Of a stretch of 64,000 bases of DNA, positions 38,663 to 57,891 are shown one piece after another. This DNA is from Promicromonospora sp. AC04. GTDB taxonomy: Bacteria > Actinomycetota > Actinomycetes > Actinomycetales > Cellulomonadaceae. The stretch covers positions 310,001 to 374,000 of the forward strand of contig NZ_QBUG01000003.1 in the NCBI RefSeq assembly GCF_003058225.1. Direction: 5' to 3'. Made by a program: the position numbers and the translations under genes. Every line of letters starts with the position of its first letter. Positions within the stretch are counted from its first letter, which is position 1. The notes under the pieces were generated by a model. The model saw only the letters and a program-made list of their open reading frames with translations, had not been told where the DNA came from and made no database searches.

Positions 38663-39922
38663 GTGCAGTGCCCCCACTACGACGCCGGCCGCTGCCGCTC
38701 CTGCACCCTCCTGGAGATCGACTACCCCACCCAGGTGCTCGACAAGGAGCGGCACGTCGCCACGCTTCTCGCCAGCTCGCAGGCCGAACTTGTCGAGACC
38801 TCGGTCTCGACGGTCTCGACCACCGGGCCGCGGGTCGAGCCTGCCGAGACCTCGGTCTCGATCACCGGTTCGGGGCTGACGTGGCTCCCCGCGGTCAGCA
38901 GCACGGAGTCGGGCTTCCGGAACAAGGCGAAGATGGTGGTCAGCGGCACGGTCGCCGAGCCGGTGCTGGGCATCCTGGACCGGGCCGGCCAGGGCGTCGA
39001 CCTCACCGACTGCGGCCTCTACCCCGACGCGCTCCAGGCGTCCTTCGGACCCCTGGCGGCGTTCGTCACGCGGGCGAACCTGGAGCCGTACCAGGTCTCG
39101 GGGATCGGCAAGCGCGCGCAACAGCGTGGCGAGCTCAAGTACCTCCTGGTCACCCTCTCGCCCGACGGCGAGCTCATGGTCCGGTTCGTGCTGCGCTCCC
39201 AGGAGGCGATAGCGCGGATCCGCAAGCACCTGGCCTCGCTGCGGGCCGAGCTGCCGGCCATGGCCGTTGCTTCGGCCAACATCCAGCCCGCGCACGCCGC
39301 GGTGCTCGAGGGGGACCTCGAGATCCCGCTCACCGAGCGCACCACGCTCCCGATGCGCATCGACGACATCACGCTCGACCTGCGCCCGCAGAGCTTCTTC
39401 CAGACCAACACGGCGGTGGCCACCGAGCTCTACCGGCAGGCCCGCACCTGGGTCGACGAGGTAGACCCGAGCAGCCTCTGGGACCTCTACTGCGGGGTGG
39501 GCGGCTTCGCGCTGCACTGCGCCGCGCCGGGGCGCGTCGTCACGGGCATCGAGATCAGCGCGGAGGCGGTGACGGCGGCGTCGGGCACCGTGGAAAAGCT
39601 GCGCGACGGCGCCCGGGCCGAGCGCTTCCGTGACGTCACCTTCGCGGCAGGCGACGCGACGGCGTTCGCGGTCGGTCCCGACGCCCCCGAGCTACCCGAG
39701 ATGGTGATCGTGAACCCGCCCCGGCGAGGCATCGGCGCGGACCTCGCACACTGGCTGGAGACCTCTGGGATCAACCACGTCCTGTACTCGAGCTGCAACG
39801 CGACGACTCTCGCCAAGGACCTCGCCGCCATGCCGTCACTGCGCCCCGTGCGGGCGCGTCTGCTCGACATGTTCCCGCAGACCTCGCACTACGAGGTGCT
39901 CGTTCTCCTGGAGCGTGCCTGA
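38663..39922 (+). CDS. rlmC: 23S rRNA (uracil-5-)-methyltransferase RlmC
   Basis: 419 residues. N-terminal iron-sulfur cysteines in MQCPHYDAGRCRSCTLLE; SAM domain DLYCGVGGFALHCA; VNPPRRGIG; catalytic Cys in YSSCNATTLAKD. The predicted target is U747. GTG 38663 is chosen by comparison with E. coli RlmC (MQCALYDAGRCRSC). GATAAT (38650-38655) 7 bases upstream suggests a leaderless transcript. Oddity: about 28 extra residues (near 43-70) come from a repeat insertion. Its 3' end overlaps the convergent sigma/anti-sigma gene by 34 bases. Confidence 0.9.
   Translation: MQCPHYDAGRCRSCTLLEIDYPTQVLDKERHVATLLASSQAELVETSVSTVSTTGPRVEPAETSVSITGSGLTWLPAVSSTESGFRNKAKMVVSGTVAEPVLGILDRAGQGVDLTDCGLYPDALQASFGPLAAFVTRANLEPYQVSGIGKRAQQRGELKYLLVTLSPDGELMVRFVLRSQEAIARIRKHLASLRAELPAMAVASANIQPAHAAVLEGDLEIPLTERTTLPMRIDDITLDLRPQSFFQTNTAVATELYRQARTWVDEVDPSSLWDLYCGVGGFALHCAAPGRVVTGIEISAEAVTAASGTVEKLRDGARAERFRDVTFAAGDATAFAVGPDAPELPEMVIVNPPRRGIGADLAHWLETSGINHVLYSSCNATTLAKDLAAMPSLRPVRARLLDMFPQTSHYEVLVLLERA
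38787..38875. repeat. In-frame repeat insertion in rlmC
   Basis: CGAGACCTCGGTCTCGA occurs at 38794-38810 and 38845-38861, exactly 51 bases (17 codons) apart. Each copy is itself a palindrome (TCGAGACC/GGTCTCGA in the first). The encoded peptide (ETSVSTV...ETSVSITG) is low-complexity and sits where other RlmC proteins have a short loop. It resembles the intergenic GTCGAGAC-type repeats of some Micrococcales. Confidence 0.65.
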
Positions 39923-41475
39923 CCGAACCACCCCGGGCCGCGCCCGTGGTCGCGCGCGGGGTCCCACGGTAGGTGGTGGGGGCTCTCGTTCCCCTCGCAC
40001 CCGCCGGATCGCCCTTCTTCCAGGCGACCCTCTGCCTTCTCCCGCTTGCCGTGTCCCGCGTCCTCTTTCGCCTGGCCGGGCGGGGTGTTTTTCTCGGCCT
40101 GGCCGGGAGGTGTGTCCTTCTTCGCCTGGCCGGGTGGCGTGTCCTTCTTGGCCTGGCCAGGTGGCGTGTCCTTCTTCGCCTGACCAGGTGGCGTGTCCTT
40201 CTTGGCCTGGCCAGGTGGCGTGTCCTTCTTCGCCTGACCCGGCGGCGTGTCCTTCTTCGCCTGACCAGGTGGCAGCCCGTCCTTCTTCGCGAGGCCGGGT
40301 GGCGTGCTGTCCTTCTTGGCCTGGCCGGGCGGGACCGTCGTGCTCGGCCCGGTGGTCTCCTCCTGGTCGCTCGTCTTCTTCGCCTGGCCGGGTGGTGCGC
40401 CGTCCTTCTTCGCCAGCCCGGGTGGCGTGGGCCCGGCCGGGGTGAGCCCGGTCGGAGTGGGCGCGACCGGGTCGGGAAGGTTCGTCGGGTCCTCGTTCGG
40501 GGACGCCGGTGTGGTGTGCCGAGCGGTGGTGCGCGCCCCGTCCGGCGTGGAGACCGATACCGTCCCGGTCTCGTGGAACGACGGCGCGGCACCCGCGTCA
40601 CCCGCGACCCCGGTCGTGACGGCGGTGGTGATGAACAGGCCTCCGGCGACGGTAGCGGTCAGGCTGACCGGGTCGGTCAGCGCGCTGCGGACGGTCAGGG
40701 CCACCCGGGTGCTCAGGGTGGTGAGCCAGCCGACGCTCGCGCTCGCAGCCGCGACGCCCGCACCGGCGGCCGCGGTCGCGCCGGTCTCCGCCGCGGTGAC
40801 GGCGCCGAGCAGCAGGACCGGCGAGGCGGCGCGCAGCATCCAGTAGGACTCGCGGACGTCGACGAACGCGCGCGTGCAGTCGGCGCACTGCACCATGTGG
40901 TCCTCGACCTGCTGCCGGCGGTGGGGCAGGAGGCGATGCCTGACGAAGTCGTGCATGGAAGCGCGGGTGGACCTGCACTCCGCGTTGTCGGCGGTACCGG
41001 CATGCGTCTCCGCGAAGTTGCTCGCGAGCCGGTCCTCGGCCCGGCGCAGGCGGCGCTTGGCTGCGTAGGGAAGCACTCCGATCTCGTCCGCGATCGCGGC
41101 CACGGGGCGGGATCCCACGTGGTGGTCCCAGAGGAGCTGCTGCTCGCCGGCCGACAGCCGTTCCATCGCGGAGTTCAGGACCTCGAAGTCGAGCGCACGT
41201 CGGATCGGAGCGGTGATCACGTCAGCTTCAGCGGTTCCGTCGGCAGGCAGGGCTTGCTCGTGTGCCATCCGCTGCGCCGCATCCACCGCCGCGGCGTTCC
41301 AGAACGCGAGGGGGTCGGCGAGCTCGCCGTGCTTCATGAGCTCGACGCACAGCAGCTCGAGACCGCGGCTCGCCGCCAGCTCGGGGTCGATGCCGGGAAC
41401 ACGCCGAGACACCGTGAAGACCACGGCGCGCCGGTGCGCCGCCCACTGGCTGAGGTCGGCGCCGGTGACCGTCAC
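39889..41475 (-). CDS. One-piece ECF sigma/anti-sigma membrane protein with PPGQAKK repeats, copy 1
   Basis: 528 residues. Order: sigma region 2-like (WAAHRRAVVFTVSRRVPG, about 10-75), sigma region 4 (LSAGEQQLLWDHHVG, AAIADEIGVLPYAAKRRLRR, about 105-155), a zinc anti-sigma module (C...HMVQCADC, H-x3-C-x2-C, about 170-205), one or two helices (about 215-295), and an outer tail with about ten PPGQAKKDT-like nonapeptides. GTG 41475 follows GGAGGGG. It is a paralogue of the gene at 41675. Release would need proteolysis, which is inference. Fused sigma/anti-sigma proteins are known in actinobacterial ECF groups. Confidence 0.82.
   Translation of the reverse strand: MTVTGADLSQWAAHRRAVVFTVSRRVPGIDPELAASRGLELLCVELMKHGELADPLAFWNAAAVDAAQRMAHEQALPADGTAEADVITAPIRRALDFEVLNSAMERLSAGEQQLLWDHHVGSRPVAAIADEIGVLPYAAKRRLRRAEDRLASNFAETHAGTADNAECRSTRASMHDFVRHRLLPHRRQQVEDHMVQCADCTRAFVDVRESYWMLRAASPVLLLGAVTAAETGATAAAGAGVAAASASVGWLTTLSTRVALTVRSALTDPVSLTATVAGGLFITTAVTTGVAGDAGAAPSFHETGTVSVSTPDGARTTARHTTPASPNEDPTNLPDPVAPTPTGLTPAGPTPPGLAKKDGAPPGQAKKTSDQEETTGPSTTVPPGQAKKDSTPPGLAKKDGLPPGQAKKDTPPGQAKKDTPPGQAKKDTPPGQAKKDTPPGQAKKDTPPGQAKKDTPPGQAEKNTPPGQAKEDAGHGKREKAEGRLEEGRSGGCEGNESPHHLPWDPARDHGRGPGWFGQARSRRTSTS
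40081..40345 (-). repeat. 27-bp tandem repeats encoding PPGQAKKDT
   Basis: At least eight near-identical 27-base units (GGTGGCGTGTCCTTCTT + C/G + GCCTG...) run in frame through the outer tail of the sigma/anti-sigma gene. Low divergence between units suggests recent expansion by slippage or recombination, so copy number may vary between strains. Flanking units (PPGLAKKDG, PPGQAEKNT) are more diverged. Confidence 0.85.
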
Positions 41476-41616
41476 GCTGCCCCCCTCCCGCACGCGGCAG
41501 GGCGCCGCGTGGCATCACGTTGCACTGAACCTCGGGCGTGCATGCTCGCAAAGAATGCAGGCGCGCGGAAGATGCGAGCGTGGTGAAGTAAGGATCTTGG
41601 GCTCGCGCCCAGCAGG

Positions 41617-41674: not shown

Positions 41675-43147
41675 TCAGTCTCCGGTCGCTGATTCTGCGT
41701 CGTCGGCGGCGCCCGAGAACGTGCCGAAGATCAGATTCCAGATCTCGTCGAGCGTCGTGGTCGCGAGATCGATGCCGGGCAGGTCGGAGAGACCCAGGCT
41801 GGCGAGCAGGTCGTCCAGCGCGGTGCCCAGGCCCGGCGTCTCCGGGACCTCAGGGACCTCCGGCTCCGGCACCTCGGGCTCCGGAACCTCTGGCTCCGGA
41901 ACCTCCGGCTGCCCCGGGTCTGTCGGCGGGTTCTCGGGGTCCGCCGGATCCGGCACGGACGGCGGCTTCGGGTTGTCCGCGCCGCCGTCCGGCGCGGGAC
42001 CGGGGTCGGAGTCCGGACCGGAGTCCGCAGCGGGCGGCTCCTCGGGCTCGGGAGCCGGGTCGGCCACAACCGGCGGCTCGTCGGCAGGTACGGGCGCCGC
42101 GTCCTCCTTGGGGGTGGTCGCGGGGCGTGGCTGCGGGTCGGTGGGCGGGATCGACGGGGGCTGCTCCTCCGTCGTCGGCTCCTCCGAGGTGGGCGAGGAG
42201 CCCGCACCGCCACCGCCACCACCGCCACCCTCGCCGCCGGCCCCGGAACCGCCACCTGCGGGTCCGGCGTCCTCGACGGCCTGGATGGGCGGGTCGGGCT
42301 GGTTCACGATCATGGCCGCGGCACCGCCGCCGATCGCGAGCGCGGCCAGCACACCCGCCGCGACAGCGGTCTCCTTCTTGCCGAACGAACGTGGCTTCGC
42401 CGCGCTCGCGGCACCGGCGGCGCCGCCGACGGCGCCGGTGATCATGACGCCGCCGATGAGGTGCTGGCCGAGGTCACGGAGCATCCAGGAGACCTCGCGC
42501 ACGTCGATGAAGGCGCGGGTGCACTCGGTGCAGCCGTCCATGTGCACTTCCAGGCGACTCTGCCGCCGGGGCAGGAGGCGGCCCTTGAGGTAGTCGTGCA
42601 TGGCGGCGCGGGTGGTGCGGCACTCGGGTTCGTTGACGGCCTGGGCGTGGGCGGCGGCGAACGCTCCGGCGAGGCGTTCCTCGGCGCGGCGCAGCCGCAT
42701 GGTCACGGCGTGGGGTCGGACGCCGAGGTCGCCCGCGATGTCGGTGACGGCCCTGTCATGGACGTGGCGGTCGAAGAGGATCTTGCGGTCGTCGTCGGCG
42801 AGCTTGGACAGGGCGGAGCGGAGCATGGTGACGTCGGCCTGGCGTTCGGCGTCGAGCTCGGCGCCGGCGACTGGGGGTGTGAGGCCGTCGAGGGTGTCGT
42901 CCTCGACCGGGCGGGTGCGTCCGGCCTCGCGGGTCATGGAGATGGCTTCGTTGACCGCGGCTCGTCGCCAGTAGGGGGCGGGGTCCTCGATGGTGGTGCC
43001 GGTGGAGACGAGGCGGACCATCTTCTCGAGGGCGCGGCTGGCGGCTTCCTCGGCGTCGATGCCGGGCACGCGTGCTGCGACGGAACGCACCACGTTCGGG
43101 CGGTGCACCACCCAGTCGTCGATCCGCAGGTCACCTGTGGTCGTCAC
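41675..43147 (-). CDS. One-piece ECF sigma/anti-sigma membrane protein with acidic Pro-rich tail, copy 2
   Basis: 490 residues from GTG 43147. Same order as copy 1: region 2-like part (VVRSVAARVPGIDAEEAASR), region 4 (LADDDRKILFDRHVH, IAGDLGVRPHAVTMRLRRAE), zinc module (HMDGCTECTRAF, H-x3-C-x2-C), one helix (AVAAGVLAALAIGGGAAAM), then an outer tail rich in Pro, Glu, Gly with EVPEP repeats and a short hydrophobic end. The start is uncertain: ATG 43357 has a perfect GGAGGTGA overlapping the preceding stop codon and would add 70 Pro/Ser-rich residues. GTG 43147 is preferred by comparison with copy 1. Confidence 0.8.
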   Translation of the reverse strand: MTTTGDLRIDDWVVHRPNVVRSVAARVPGIDAEEAASRALEKMVRLVSTGTTIEDPAPYWRRAAVNEAISMTREAGRTRPVEDDTLDGLTPPVAGAELDAERQADVTMLRSALSKLADDDRKILFDRHVHDRAVTDIAGDLGVRPHAVTMRLRRAEERLAGAFAAAHAQAVNEPECRTTRAAMHDYLKGRLLPRRQSRLEVHMDGCTECTRAFIDVREVSWMLRDLGQHLIGGVMITGAVGGAAGAASAAKPRSFGKKETAVAAGVLAALAIGGGAAAMIVNQPDPPIQAVEDAGPAGGGSGAGGEGGGGGGGGAGSSPTSEEPTTEEQPPSIPPTDPQPRPATTPKEDAAPVPADEPPVVADPAPEPEEPPAADSGPDSDPGPAPDGGADNPKPPSVPDPADPENPPTDPGQPEVPEPEVPEPEVPEPEVPEVPETPGLGTALDDLLASLGLSDLPGIDLATTTLDEIWNLIFGTFSGAADDAESATGD

Positions 43148-43364
43148 GCGAACCTGCCCCTCTCTGCGCATAGTGTCCGGTTTCGACTCGCTGGGCAATG
43201 ATCGCACCACACGTCCGTGTTTGCGCAACTCCTCAGGGTGATCTGTCGTGATGGCGGCGCTGCTGGGGTGCGCCGCCATTGGCGTGTGCCTGCTCGTGGA
43301 CGGGGGCCTGCTCGTGGGCTCGGGCGTGGACAGGGGTCTGGGCTGGGGCGTGTCCATCAGGTGC

Positions 43365-43586
43365 TCACCTCCGGGTCGTCGCGAACGTGGTCGATACTGC
43401 GTCGAGGCCCTGCGGTCCGGCTGTCGCGTGGATGACCGCGAGCGCGACCTCGCAGGTGGCGGCGATCAGATCGCTCGCCCCCCACGCGTCCGCGAGGCGG
43501 TAGAGGTTGACGGCATCGCCCTCCGCGTACGCGCGCAAGTACTGGGCGCCCAGACGAACGAGTTCGGGGTGCTCGGTGTGTTCCAT
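43365..43586 (-). CDS. Small leaderless gene of the ECF-type promoter module
   Basis: 73 residues, mostly helical (ELVRLGAQYLRAYAEGDAV, WGASDLIAATCEVALAVIHA), no family recognised. ATG 43586 lies exactly 8 bases after the CGTC of a conserved promoter module, so the mRNA is probably leaderless. Its stop overlaps the GGAGG site of a possible extended start of the sigma/anti-sigma gene, suggesting cotranscription with it. Confidence 0.6.
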   Translation of the reverse strand: MEHTEHPELVRLGAQYLRAYAEGDAVNLYRLADAWGASDLIAATCEVALAVIHATAGPQGLDAVSTTFATTRR

Positions 43587-43594
43587 GCAGCCCA

Positions 43595-43626
43595 GACGCA
43601 CGAGGCGAGCGGATGTCACAGCACTT
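43595..43626 (-). promoter_or_regulatory. ECF-type promoter module, copy 1
   Basis: On the minus strand: AAGTGCTGTGACATCC (43626-43611), exactly 12 bases, CGTC (43598-43595), 8 bases, ATG. The CGTC -10 and the fixed spacing are those of ECF-sigma promoters. Copies at 43770 and 57594 have the same geometry. Confidence 0.75.
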
Positions 43627-43769
43627 CTGGAAATTTCTTCGGATTCTTCCGTGACGTCCGGTTCGGGGCCGGATCGAGGGCCATTTGGATGCCCAGGGCA
43701 CCGTTCGGCGCGCGCGAAGCGACGTCGTCCGGTAGGTCTGTGACCCAGACCACATGTCATTGCATCAAA

Positions 43770-43801
43770 AAGTGCTGTGACTTCCGGGACGTGCTCGCGT
43801 C
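43770..43801 (+). promoter_or_regulatory. ECF-type promoter module, copy 2 (start codon lost)
   Basis: AAGTGCTGTGACTTCC (43770-43785), exactly 12 bases, CGTC (43798-43801), then TTAGCTGC and GAC where the other two copies have ATG. It faces leuS. Either a relic of a deleted gene or a promoter that now transcribes toward leuS. Confidence 0.6.
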
Positions 43802-43861
43802 TTAGCTGCGACGCGGACGAAGTTCGGACCTCGCTGGGGGCGGGCCGAGCTCCGGCGCGTC

Positions 43862-43919
43862 GGACGGGAGCCGTGGTTCGGAGTGTGCTCGGCGCACGCC
43901 GAACCGCTGGCTCCCGTCC
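43862..43919. repeat. Large inverted repeat upstream of leuS
   Basis: GGACGGGAGCC (43862-43872) pairs with GGCTCCCGTCC (43909-43919), and GGTTCGG (43875-43881) with CCGAACC (43899-43905). The two stems are separated by a small asymmetric loop, giving an 18-bp hairpin. Further CCGAGC/GCTCGG matches flank it. Confidence 0.7.
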
Positions 43920-44014
43920 CTCGGCGCGAGCGCCGGCTCGGACCTCGCTGGCGGACCGATCCGGCGCTCGCACCGCACGATGGCTGGAGCTCGCGGCGTT
44001 CCGCACCGAATTCC

Positions 44015-44050: not shown

Positions 44051-44080
44051 ATGCACATGGCACGCTCGCTGCTTCGATAG
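44051..44080 (+). CDS. leuS leader peptide MHMARSLLR
   Basis: Nine codons followed by TAG, with adjacent leucine codons CTG CTT just before the end. A hairpin begins directly after the stop codon and a terminator follows at 44123. This is the arrangement of ribosome-mediated attenuation: slow decoding of leucine codons would change folding downstream. No Shine-Dalgarno at a usable distance; start at or near the transcript 5' end is likely. Confidence 0.65.
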
Positions 44081-44120
44081 CCGCACCGGACCCGCCCTCG
44101 ATCGGGCACACCCGGTGCGG
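44081..44120 (+). promoter_or_regulatory. First hairpin of the leuS attenuator
   Basis: CCGCACCGG (44081-44089) pairs perfectly with CCGGTGCGG (44112-44120). A competing pairing joins CGGGCACA (44103-44110) with TGTGCCCG (44147-44154), across the terminator. These are candidates for the switching structures. Confidence 0.6.
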
Positions 44121-44122
44121 CC

Positions 44123-44147
44123 GCCCCTCCTTGCGAGGGGCTTTTTT
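44123..44147 (+). terminator. Intrinsic terminator in the leuS leader
   Basis: GCCCCTC (44123-44129) pairs with GAGGGGC (44135-44141) and is followed by six T (44142-44147). A textbook U-tract terminator, rare in this GC-rich window, placed 40 bases before the leuS start codon. Confidence 0.9.
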
Positions 44148-44186: not shown

Positions 44187-46151
44187 ATGAGCGAGAACCG
44201 CACCATTCCTGCACCGCCCGGCGACACCCGCGCCGAGGCCCGTCTGTTCGAGGCGTTCGACGACGGCGTCCGCCCCCGCCGCTACCTGCTGACGATGTTC
44301 CCGTACCCCTCCGGGGACCTGCACATGGGCCACGCCGAGGTGTTCGCGATCACCGACGTCGTGGCGCGGTACTGGCGCGCCAAGGGCTTCGACGTGCTCA
44401 ACCCGGTCGGCTGGGACTCGTTCGGCCTGCCCGCCGAGAACGCGGCGATCCGCCGTGGCGAGCATCCCGCCGCGTTCACGGAAGCGAACATCGCGACCCA
44501 GGCGGCGTCGATCCGGCGTTACGGCGTCTCGTTCGACTGGTCGCGGCGCCTGCACACCCACGAGCCCGCGTACTACCGCTGGACGCAGTGGCTGTTCGCG
44601 CGCCTGCACGAGCGGGGCCTGGCCTACCGGGCCGCGGCCGAGGTGAACTGGTGCCCCAAGGACCGCACGGTGCTGGCCAACGAGCAGGTGGTCGACGGCG
44701 CATGCGAGCGCTGCGGCACCGCCGTCGTCGCCCGCAGCCTGACGCAGTGGTTCTTCCGGACCACCGCCTACGCGGACCGCCTGCTGGACGACATGGCGCA
44801 GCTGGAGCCGGGCTGGCCGGCGCACGTGCTGACGATGCAGCGCAACTGGATCGGCCGGCAGGACGGACCCGGCGGCACCACGTACCGCCTGCACGACTGG
44901 CTGGTCTCCCGGCAGCGCTACTGGGGCGCGCCGATCCCCGTGGTGCACTGCCCGGACTGCGGGGAGGTGGTGGTGCCGGACGACCAGCTGCCCGTCGAGC
45001 TGCCGCACCTGGAGGGCGACCAGCTGGTACCGGGCGACGTCTCACCCCTGGCCGGGGCCCGCGACTGGGTGGTGACGACCTGCCCGCGGTGCGGCGGCCC
45101 GGCCGAGCGGGACACGGACACGATGGACACGTTCGTGGACTCGTCCTGGTACTTCCTGCGCTACCTGTCGCCCGGGTACGACGGCGGACCGTTCCGCCCC
45201 GAGGACGCCGCCCGGTGGATGCCCGCCGCCCTGTACGTCGGCGGGGTCGAGCACGCCACGATGCACCTGCTGTACGCGCGGTTCGTCACCAAGGTGCTGT
45301 ACGACATGGGCCTGGTGCCGTCGCCCGAGCCGTACGCGCGCCTGCTGAACCAGGGCCAGGTCGTCAACCACGGCAAGGCGATGAGCAAGTCGCTGGGCAA
45401 CGGCGTGGACCTGGCGGCGGAGCTGGACCGGCACGGGGTCGACGCCGTCCGCCTGGCGATGCTGTTCTCGGGACCGCCGGAGGACGACGTCGACTGGGCG
45501 GACGTCTCGCCCGACGCGATGCGGAAGTTCCTGGCCCGCGTGCTGCGGCTGGCGCCGCCCCATGGATCGGACCCGTCGATACCGTCGGACGACGGCGGGC
45601 CGGCCTCGACCGGCTCGACCAGCGAAACGCGCCCGACCGGCGACGACGGACCGGGCATCCTGCGGCGGATGGTGCACCGCACCGTGCACGACGTCGACGG
45701 CCTGGTCGAGGCCGGACGGTTCAACGTCGCGATCGCGCGGCTGATGGAGCTGGTCGGCGAGGTGCGCCGGGCGGCGTCGGGCGGCGACGGCCACGGCCCG
45801 GGCGAGAGCGAGGAGTACCGCGAGGGCGTCGCGGCCGTCGCGGTGCTGCTGAGCCTGTTCGCCCCGCACGCCGCCCAGGAGCTGTGGGAGCGGCTGGGGC
45901 GCACGACGCCGGTCGCGGCGCAGCCGTGGCCCGAGGTGGACCCGGCGCTCCTGGTGACCTCCGAGGTCGAGGCCGTGGTCCAGGTGGACGGGAAGGTGCG
46001 GGACCGGCTGCTGGTGTCCGTGGACGTGGCGCCAGCGGAGCTGGAACGGGCCGCGCTGGCCCGGCCGGCCGTGGCGCGCGCCGTGGGCGACCGGGCGGTG
46101 CGGCGGGTGGTGGTGCGGCCGCCGCACCTGGTCAACGTGGTGCTGGGCTAA
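44187..46151 (+). CDS. leuS: Leucyl-tRNA synthetase lacking the CP1 editing domain
   Basis: Charges tRNA-Leu. 654 residues against about 820-960 for bacterial LeuRS. Signatures: HMGH of the HIGH box ([12 protein letters not shown]), [55 protein letters not shown] (KMSKS box with the first Lys replaced by Ala), and C-terminal [13 protein letters not shown]. Between NWIGR and YRLHDW, where the roughly 180-residue CP1 editing domain normally sits, only about 8 residues remain, so hydrolytic proofreading should be absent. ATG 44187 follows GGAG. Likely a second LeuRS or a resistance form; a normal leuS elsewhere cannot be excluded or shown. Confidence 0.92.
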
Positions 46152-57593: not shown

Positions 57594-57625
57594 AAGTGCT
57601 GTGACATCCACGGGACCTCCGCGTC
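57594..57625 (+). promoter_or_regulatory. ECF-type promoter module, copy 3
   Basis: AAGTGCTGTGACATCC (57594-57609), exactly 12 bases, CGTC (57622-57625), 8 bases, ATG 57634. Identical in core and geometry to copies at 43611-43626 and 43770-43801, 14 kb away. Confidence 0.75.
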
Positions 57626-57633
57626 AGTAGTGC

Positions 57634-57891
57634 ATGACTCAGACACGAAGCAGGACCTACGGCCTCGCCTCGAACCCCTCGGAGTGGGCAGCGCACCGTC
57701 GCGCCGTCGTCTTCTCCGTGCGGCGGATGTTCCCGGGCGTCGATGCCGAGCGCGCCGCGACGGACGGCCTGGGCGAGCTGTGCCGCCAGATAGTGATGCG
57801 CGGCGCCGTGGACCGGCCCGCCGTCGTGTGGTGCGAGGCCGCGATCGCGGCGGCCGCCCGCATGCGGACCGCTGCCGGTTCGGCGGCATGA
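57634..57891 (+). CDS. Truncated sigma region 2-like protein, leaderless
   Basis: 85 residues. NPSEWAAHRRAVVFSVRRMF and FPGVDAERAATDGLGELC match the N-terminal region-2-like part of the sigma/anti-sigma protein at 39889 (WAAHRRAVVFTVSRRVPG). Region 4, zinc module and helix are absent. It is either a remnant of a third full copy or a small protein that works with the others. The start codon is exactly 8 bases after the CGTC of the promoter module, so the mRNA is probably leaderless. Confidence 0.7.
   Translation: MTQTRSRTYGLASNPSEWAAHRRAVVFSVRRMFPGVDAERAATDGLGELCRQIVMRGAVDRPAVVWCEAAIAAAARMRTAAGSAA

Follow-up and report, generated by a model that had tools for sequence, protein, structure and literature searches.

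The two-block sequence that recurs in the window (the whole 64,000-nucleotide stretch analysed, positions 310001-374000 of contig C3 in a 6.85-Mb Promicromonospora genome) probably serves as the shared promoter of a small regulon of the ECF sigma type, with the fused sigma/anti-sigma factor sigma1 as its likely reader; the regulon would include a predicted non-coding RNA and, more tentatively, feedback. The regulon itself and the leaderless starts of its genes are well supported by the comparison of sequences, and sigma1 is the likely reader, as judged from synteny and from presence and absence among genomes. The features concerned are listed in Table 1.

Table 1. Features of the window relevant to the regulon, with strand and main characteristics.
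Feature	Position	Strand	Characteristics
sigma2, diverged sigma/anti-sigma fusion	39889..41493	-	SD-like GGAGGGGGG; no motif upstream
sigma1	41675..43147	-	ECF-like sigma, zf-HC2 anti-sigma, hydrophobic segment, Pro-rich tail
P0002, 73-aa all-helical protein	43365..43586	-	predicted leaderless; behind promoter copy 1
promoter copy 1	43584..43626	-	AAGTGCTGTGAC at 43626-43615; CGTC at 43598-43595; predicted +1, A of ATG (43586)
promoter copy 2 ("third copy" of the preliminary description)	43770..43801	+	predicted +1, 43810; predicted ncRNA promoter
predicted structured non-coding RNA	43810..43972	+	hairpins ~43814-43859, 43868-43913 and 43928-43970
promoter copy 3	57594..57625	+	upstream of P0003
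P0003, 85-aa stand-alone sigma region-2-like protein	57634..57891	+	predicted leaderless

As the preliminary description had claimed, the window carries three copies of the block. Two of them (43584-43626, minus strand, and 57594-57636, plus strand) matched the pattern AAGTGCTGTGACWTCC-N12-CGTC-N8-ATG with 0 mismatches, and the one at 43770-43812 (plus strand) deviated from it in the ATG alone. No match to the motif was found in 100 dinucleotide shuffles of the window, even when up to three mismatches were allowed. When the whole genome was searched for the 16-base core with at most one mismatch, five copies were obtained; CGTC followed after exactly N12 in all five, and ATG after exactly N8 more in four. 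The two copies outside the window (C8:58279, exact, and C2:460171, with one mismatch) both had CGTC after N12 and ATG after N8, neither of which was part of the search query. Hence, the genome scan for further matches at start codons that had been proposed as a check succeeded. With up to three mismatches, the genome gave 49 matches against 36 for the reversed pattern, and the matches beyond the five true sites were collectively taken for chance.

The pattern AAGTGCTGTGAC-N16-CGTC was searched with at most one mismatch in 221 genomes of the family, and all of the 81 places found, in 24 genomes, were read. Seventy-five of them were located in 18 genomes of Promicromonospora, Antribacter and Myceligenerans (genus labels g1, g3 and g14), and the remaining six genomes gave one match each, ATG being at +8 in none of the six. 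The 75 sites comprised 13 of the type of copy 2 and 62 others. ATG was present at exactly +8 in 60 of these 62 sites (59 distinct sequences), the background frequency of ATG in the window being 0.0079 per position; no probability is given, since sites that share a common descent cannot be counted as independent. This fixed distance fits the leaderless starts previously suggested for these genes, which we consider as predicted. One of the two exceptions (G209:C65) had ATG at +9, opening the gene of a zf-HC2-like protein, and the other (G077:C54:38875), upstream of a HAD gene, had it at +4, in frame. At the Antribacter site L139 (G014:C18:3319-3350), the ATG at +8 opens an ORF of merely 25 codons, perhaps that of a short leader peptide or the remnant of a decayed target; a mycothiol-S-transferase/DinB-like gene is next downstream of this ORF.

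A scan for TGTGACATCC-N12-CGTC-N8-ATG that covered 84,980 species, with one genome apiece, yielded 32 stretches, 22 of them in four related genera (Promicromonospora, Myceligenerans, Antribacter and Luteimicrobium). Each of these 22 opens the gene of a regulon protein, and the other 10 were scattered, without a common gene. In a class-wide sample of 394 genomes, the exact pattern was present in the genome of the window alone and in none of the other 393. Two genomes of the genus Luteimicrobium (G021 and G206) carried a diverged form, GTGTGAC-N16-CGTC-N8-ATG, before the P0002 homologue.

The conservation of each position was analysed in a 76-row alignment, whose filter demanded GTGAC and CGT and which includes two chance matches (the chance rows are the coding rows L181 and L189, from unrelated bacteria; rows L026 and L027 of the remaining class were likewise dropped). 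The core contained 1.4-2.0 bits per position, the spacer mostly 0.3-1.3 and the upstream flanks 0.2-0.6. Exceptions within the spacer were its second place, an invariant T, and its last place before CGTC, occupied by G in 73 of the 76 rows. Since the upstream flanks are not conserved, the motif does not belong to any longer repeat, and the mobile repeat that the preliminary description had named as a counter-explanation was thereby ruled out. It is also extremely unlikely that the 16-base core represents an activator or repressor site before ordinary promoters, or a piece of such a repeat. In favour of this, the core is longer than the usual ECF -35 element, but the N16 to CGTC and the N8 to ATG are fixed across unrelated genes, the flanks vary, the sites (2 to 6 per genome) stand before recurrent genes, and the reversed pattern gave one match across the 18 motif genomes. 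The reading of the block as a bipartite ECF-type promoter, put forward in the preliminary description, is supported.

The genes behind the promoter copies of the window were those named before: P0002, whose gene directly precedes that of the sigma/anti-sigma fusion, and a sigma-like fragment (P0003). Copy 1 is also kept before the P0002 homologue in relatives. No family above cut-off was found for P0002 in Pfam or NCBIfam, and a structural search with its predicted fold gave no match. P0003 is clearly linked by sequence to both fusions: it gave a profile match to sigma1 and, in pairwise comparison, 37% identity to sigma1 over 67 aa, whereas with the N-terminus of sigma2 it shares 52% identity over 62 aa. 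The AlphaFold model of P0003 consists of three helices (pLDDT 84), and its comparison with region 2 of E. coli sigmaE gave a TM of 0.56 over 63 columns, the top query TM among 25 Foldseek matches, with an insignificant Foldseek E of 9.9. Lone zf-HC2 proteins were found behind the motif in G007, G011, G014 and Myceligenerans, four of these proteins being over the Pfam cut-off and that of G209 below it (19.8 vs 22.2 bits). Outside the window, the C8 site begins a HAD-type phosphatase (Pfam Hydrolase_3, 135.9 bits) and the C2 site a protein of about 100 aa with zero Pfam matches. The latter shows at least 75% identity in 12 Promicromonospora genomes, in all of which the gene starts 40 bases after the start of the motif, and 37-40% identity in Myceligenerans. 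In G004, which has sigma1, no P0002, stand-alone P0003 or 100-aa gene was found and coding sites were zero; the one site left in this genome is the RNA promoter, which shows two mismatches.

The ORF of sigma1 opens at 43357, and a GTG at 43147 is preceded by AGAGAGGGG; the latter is the likelier start. The sigma part is clearly similar to ECF sigma regions 2 and 4 but scored below the curated cut-offs, both with the sigma models of NCBIfam (TIGR02937, 34.3 bits with a cut-off of 42.9) and with that of Pfam for region 4 (Sigma70_r4_2, 23.8 with a cut-off of 25.7), and the zf-HC2 domain, C-terminal to sigma at residues 246-279, above it (28.8 vs 22.2 bits). A hydrophobic stretch, recognised by hydrophobicity alone, spans residues 332-351 (mean 2.1 over 19 residues), and 46 of the last 205 residues are Pro. 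No carbohydrate-binding module was detected with Pfam up to an E of 10; therefore, sigma1 was not filed as ECF52, but only as a fusion of such a build. A SnoaL-like C-terminal extension was detected neither by Pfam nor in the best 25 of 30 NCBIfam matches. The adjoining sigma2 shares 45-47% identity with sigma1 over the sigma and zf regions, and its Pfam domain scores are under cut-off. That this diverged fusion is the reader of the promoter, with P0003 and the lone zf-HC2 proteins resembling its parts, appears very improbable. The greater similarity of P0003 to sigma2 than to sigma1 speaks for it; against it, no sigma2 match was listed in G008 or G021, both of which have sites, and sigma2 itself lies behind an SD-like sequence and not behind the motif.

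The distribution of sigma1 supports it as the likely reader. With a threshold of at least 60% identity, sigma1 was found in 21 of the 221 family genomes (13 of g1, 2 of g3, 2 of g10 and 4 of g14), in G012 (g1) and G014 (g3; 27 residues) only as fragments at contig ends. No match at 60% identity was listed for the other 200 genomes, and the sole further genome listed at E below 1e-15 was G035 (46% to sigma1). The motif or a variant of it occurs in the same 21 genomes: 18 with standard sites, G004 with its RNA site, and G021 and G206 with the diverged form. This co-occurrence may reflect the shared ancestry of related genera. P0002 was present in 18 of the 221 genomes, beside sigma1 in all 18, five of these adjacencies (G003, G006, G010, G011 and G014) being cut by a contig end.

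Another ECF sigma, for example of the ECF41/SigJ type, could be what reads a genuine promoter, sigma1 being a mere neighbour or target; this is unlikely, yet a possibility to be taken seriously. The SigJ-like model NF007214, which we take to be equivalent to ECF41, was above its cut-off in all 15 of those genomes, out of the 59 sampled, that carry an exact-type site or, in G004, the RNA site, and Luteimicrobium G021 fell just under it (269.8 vs 271 bits). In addition, the ECF41 promoters given in the cited part of the literature (TGTCACA-n16-CGTC; PMC3426412) are near the TGTGACA-n15-CGTC found here. However, the cut-off was passed in 26 of the 59 relatives, i.e. all 13 of g1, G014, G025 and 11 genomes without the motif. 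Therefore, SigJ-like factors could read the promoter, yet they do not follow the motif, whereas sigma1 coincides with it in 21 of 221 genomes and adjoins P0002 wherever P0002 is found.

With sigma1 as the reader, the self-control proposed in the preliminary description holds in part. One target lies just upstream of the fusion gene: a gap of about 217 bases separates the end of P0002 from the likely start of sigma1, so that their co-transcription is an assumption. Against self-control, the motif-driven P0002 of Luteimicrobium is divergent from sigma1, so that the motif faces away from the sigma gene, and the motif (at most one mismatch) was absent from the 450 bases upstream of the 14 other fusion paralogues read. 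Several sigma1 paralogues without the motif carry a palindrome-like sequence, TGCGTTGACGCA(C), some 95-110 bases ahead of the sigma domain (L072, L076, L263, L266, L269 and L272), with one base changed in L269 and with the variants TGCGTTAACGCAC in L214 and TGCGTCAACGCA in L147; it is perhaps an operator or another type of promoter.

The genome of the window itself has, besides the sigma1 locus (41675-43357), a near-identical paralogue at G000:C16:38217-38882 (L147). Seven pairs of sigma1 paralogues, taken out of more existing ones, were compared within genomes, and the DNA identity of their sigma domains was 97.7-99.8% in five and 92.9 and 87.9% in the others; between six genomes (15 comparisons) it was 78-90%. 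The tails of the paralogues were mostly unlike, with the exception of G005 (247 of 248 residues alike); G010 has no comparable tail. This looks like gene conversion of the sigma domain within each genome. If so, a single DNA-binding specificity would be kept and several sensors could drive one regulon. The recognition-helix stretch VRPHAVT(M/V)RLRRAEERL was kept in most of the sigma1 copies read, including that of Luteimicrobium. Many draft contigs break off inside a sigma domain of the sigma1 type.

Copy 2 had been described as a copy that has lost its ATG. This was not upheld, since the sequence downstream is a conserved structured RNA in 15 genomes, and the copy appears to be the promoter of a predicted, apparently non-coding RNA. 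From the predicted +1 onwards the sequence reads GAC or GAG, mostly GACGCG, in all 15 genomes where the RNA site was found, which rules out the loss of an ATG. The RNA is made up of as many as three hairpins in tandem, which share one pattern (approximately UCGGA-N4-GCUGG(G/C)GGC-N3-CCGA), and folding of the single sequence gave a z of -6.6. In 27 hairpins, 92.9% of the cells were paired, vs 78.9% when shuffled and 32-46% when slid, and compensatory cells (both sides changed) numbered 59 vs 25.6 in the shuffles. The covariation score was 0.389 vs 0.170, a value as high in 0 of 500 shuffles, for a structure derived from the same alignment and hairpins picked by the core pattern with at most five mismatches. 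No excess was observed in these hairpins for pairs with a double change (7 vs 5.7; 74 of 500 shuffles as high) or for pair types (17 vs 18.2; 432 of 500), and for the 15 whole RNAs the covariation term of RNAalifold was near zero (-0.06). A closing stem pairs RNA columns 1-3 with columns 51-53; as it starts at the predicted +1, where the coding sites have ATG, it provides a second support for this start.

The hairpin model R1 gave strong matches (E below 1e-5) in 15 of the 221 genomes, at one locus each, and at this threshold the RNA was undetected in G002, G008, G012 and G077. Weaker matches in other genomes, among them one each in two genomes of g25 (L235, G180:C1:660800-660846, E 6e-5, the best; L236, G182:C1:1206639-1206685, 1e-4), may be due to chance. 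No Rfam 15 family reached its gathering score, the best match having 25.3 bits vs 84. Ms1 RNA was considered and rejected, the match being weak (E 3.5) and the flanking genes different: in the cited part of its description, Ms1 is flanked by an oxidoreductase or glycosidase gene and a HAD-type gene (PMC9130861). Pairing of the loops of two hairpins with four regulon mRNAs did not exceed that of shuffles (between 19 and 183 out of 200 were equally good) and, hence, no target is claimed for the RNA.

In the first alignment (12 genomes), the RNA locus lay upstream of leuS in the window genome and in the aligned Promicromonospora, where an attenuator-like leader (44051-44141) is also found. One could therefore regard copy 2 as decayed and the downstream RNA as just the leuS leader, which is very unlikely. 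In the Myceligenerans genome G025 the hairpins follow the same promoter and the leuS leader sequence is missing; thus the RNA is not simply a leuS leader, and this explanation was ruled out as the only one. The covariation of the hairpins given above also stands against it, as does a promoter-like TTTACC/TACCGT, read by eye after the RNA hairpins, which may be leuS's own promoter, although a sigma-70 scan found none. The leader, which ends in a terminator-like hairpin (44123-44141) and is kept in the aligned Promicromonospora relatives, is attenuator-like as judged from these elements. The leuS gene (44187-46151) encodes merely 654 aa and scored 676.5 bits with the bacterial leucine--tRNA ligase model (cut-off 548.4). 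In its best stretch, residue 231 falls at profile position 407, and Pfam gave no separate editing domain; the product resembles a LeuRS that lacks the CP1 editing domain.

With sigma1 as the reader and copy 2 as the promoter of the RNA, the following mechanism can be proposed. A signal would lead to proteolytic cleavage of the membrane-tethered sigma1, and the free sigma would recognise a promoter composed of a -35 core, (AAG)TGCTGTGAC, a 16-base spacer and a -10 CGTC, with the start 8 bases on. Transcription would begin at the A of the ATG, giving leaderless mRNAs, and at the divergent copy it would begin at the first base of the structured RNA. In this way free sigma1 would drive P0002, by read-through sigma1 itself, the RNA and a few unlinked genes. 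Feedback, of either sign, by the region-2-only and zf-HC2-only products, which resemble parts of such fusions, is likely; they might bind one of the two halves of the fusion, sigma or anti-sigma. The RNA with its three hairpins might bind a protein or RNA target, both steps being the more tentative ones. A bolder and rather doubtful version is a partner-switching circuit made from duplicated pieces of the fusion, in which several tethered sensors with differing outer tails would share one homogenised sigma domain and thereby feed a single leaderless regulon, whose products would be stand-alone copies of parts of the fusion (a region-2 decoy and zf-HC2 proteins) and a three-hairpin sponge RNA.

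Promoters and targets of actinobacterial fused sigma/anti-sigma factors are barely known, and comparative genomics yields here a sharply defined promoter together with a small number of targets and a predicted structured RNA. The regulon is of a known kind, that of the ECF factors. The RNA element is new, in that it was found in no library or paper searched; the searches of open-licence PMC papers listed none whose title or abstract deals with this motif, regulon or RNA. In the cited parts of PMC5826349 and PMC8999054, activation by proteolysis is expected for the ECF48, ECF52 and ECF53 fusions, and autoregulation is suggested for SCO4117 of Streptomyces coelicolor, which is there called the first characterised ECF52 member and whose motif, according to its authors, needs further proof. 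Like these fusions, sigma1 is a single polypeptide with a sigma domain, zf-HC2, a hydrophobic stretch and a tail rich in Pro, whereas the carbohydrate-binding domain of ECF52 was not found in it. The motif proposed for SCO4117 in those parts (CSGYN-17bp-SRHA) differs from the one described here, and SCO4117 is given there as the sole ECF52 of its genome, whereas here several sigma1 paralogues share one sigma domain. Unlike in SCO4117, the genes behind the motif include isolated fragments of sigma and of anti-sigma as well as a predicted ncRNA; to place stand-alone region-2 and anti-sigma proteins under one promoter would, if true, be an unusual feedback build on such a factor.

The ECF41 system, as given in the cited part of PMC3426412, resembles the present one in the -10 CGTC, in a -35 that differs from TGTGACA in one base of seven and in a spacing within one base. 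In contrast to ECF41, a T precedes GTGAC in 74 of the 76 rows (GTGAC being required by the filter), so that the -35 is not TGTCACA; no SnoaL-type extension was found on sigma1, the target genes are others, the conserved core reaches further upstream (AAGTGC) and the starts are predicted to be leaderless. In the partner switch of the EcfG type, a response regulator mimics sigma, as stated in the cited part of PMC8999054. By analogy, the sigma-like part of P0003 could compete for the anti-sigma, although P0003 is a region-2-like domain alone and not a response regulator. Sponge RNAs of the CsrB/RsmZ type consist of hairpins in tandem that repeat a conserved apical sequence, in their case the GGA loop. 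The RNA described here is like them in its tandem hairpins and in the repetition of an apical sequence, but its loop is GCUGG(G/C)G and not GGA.
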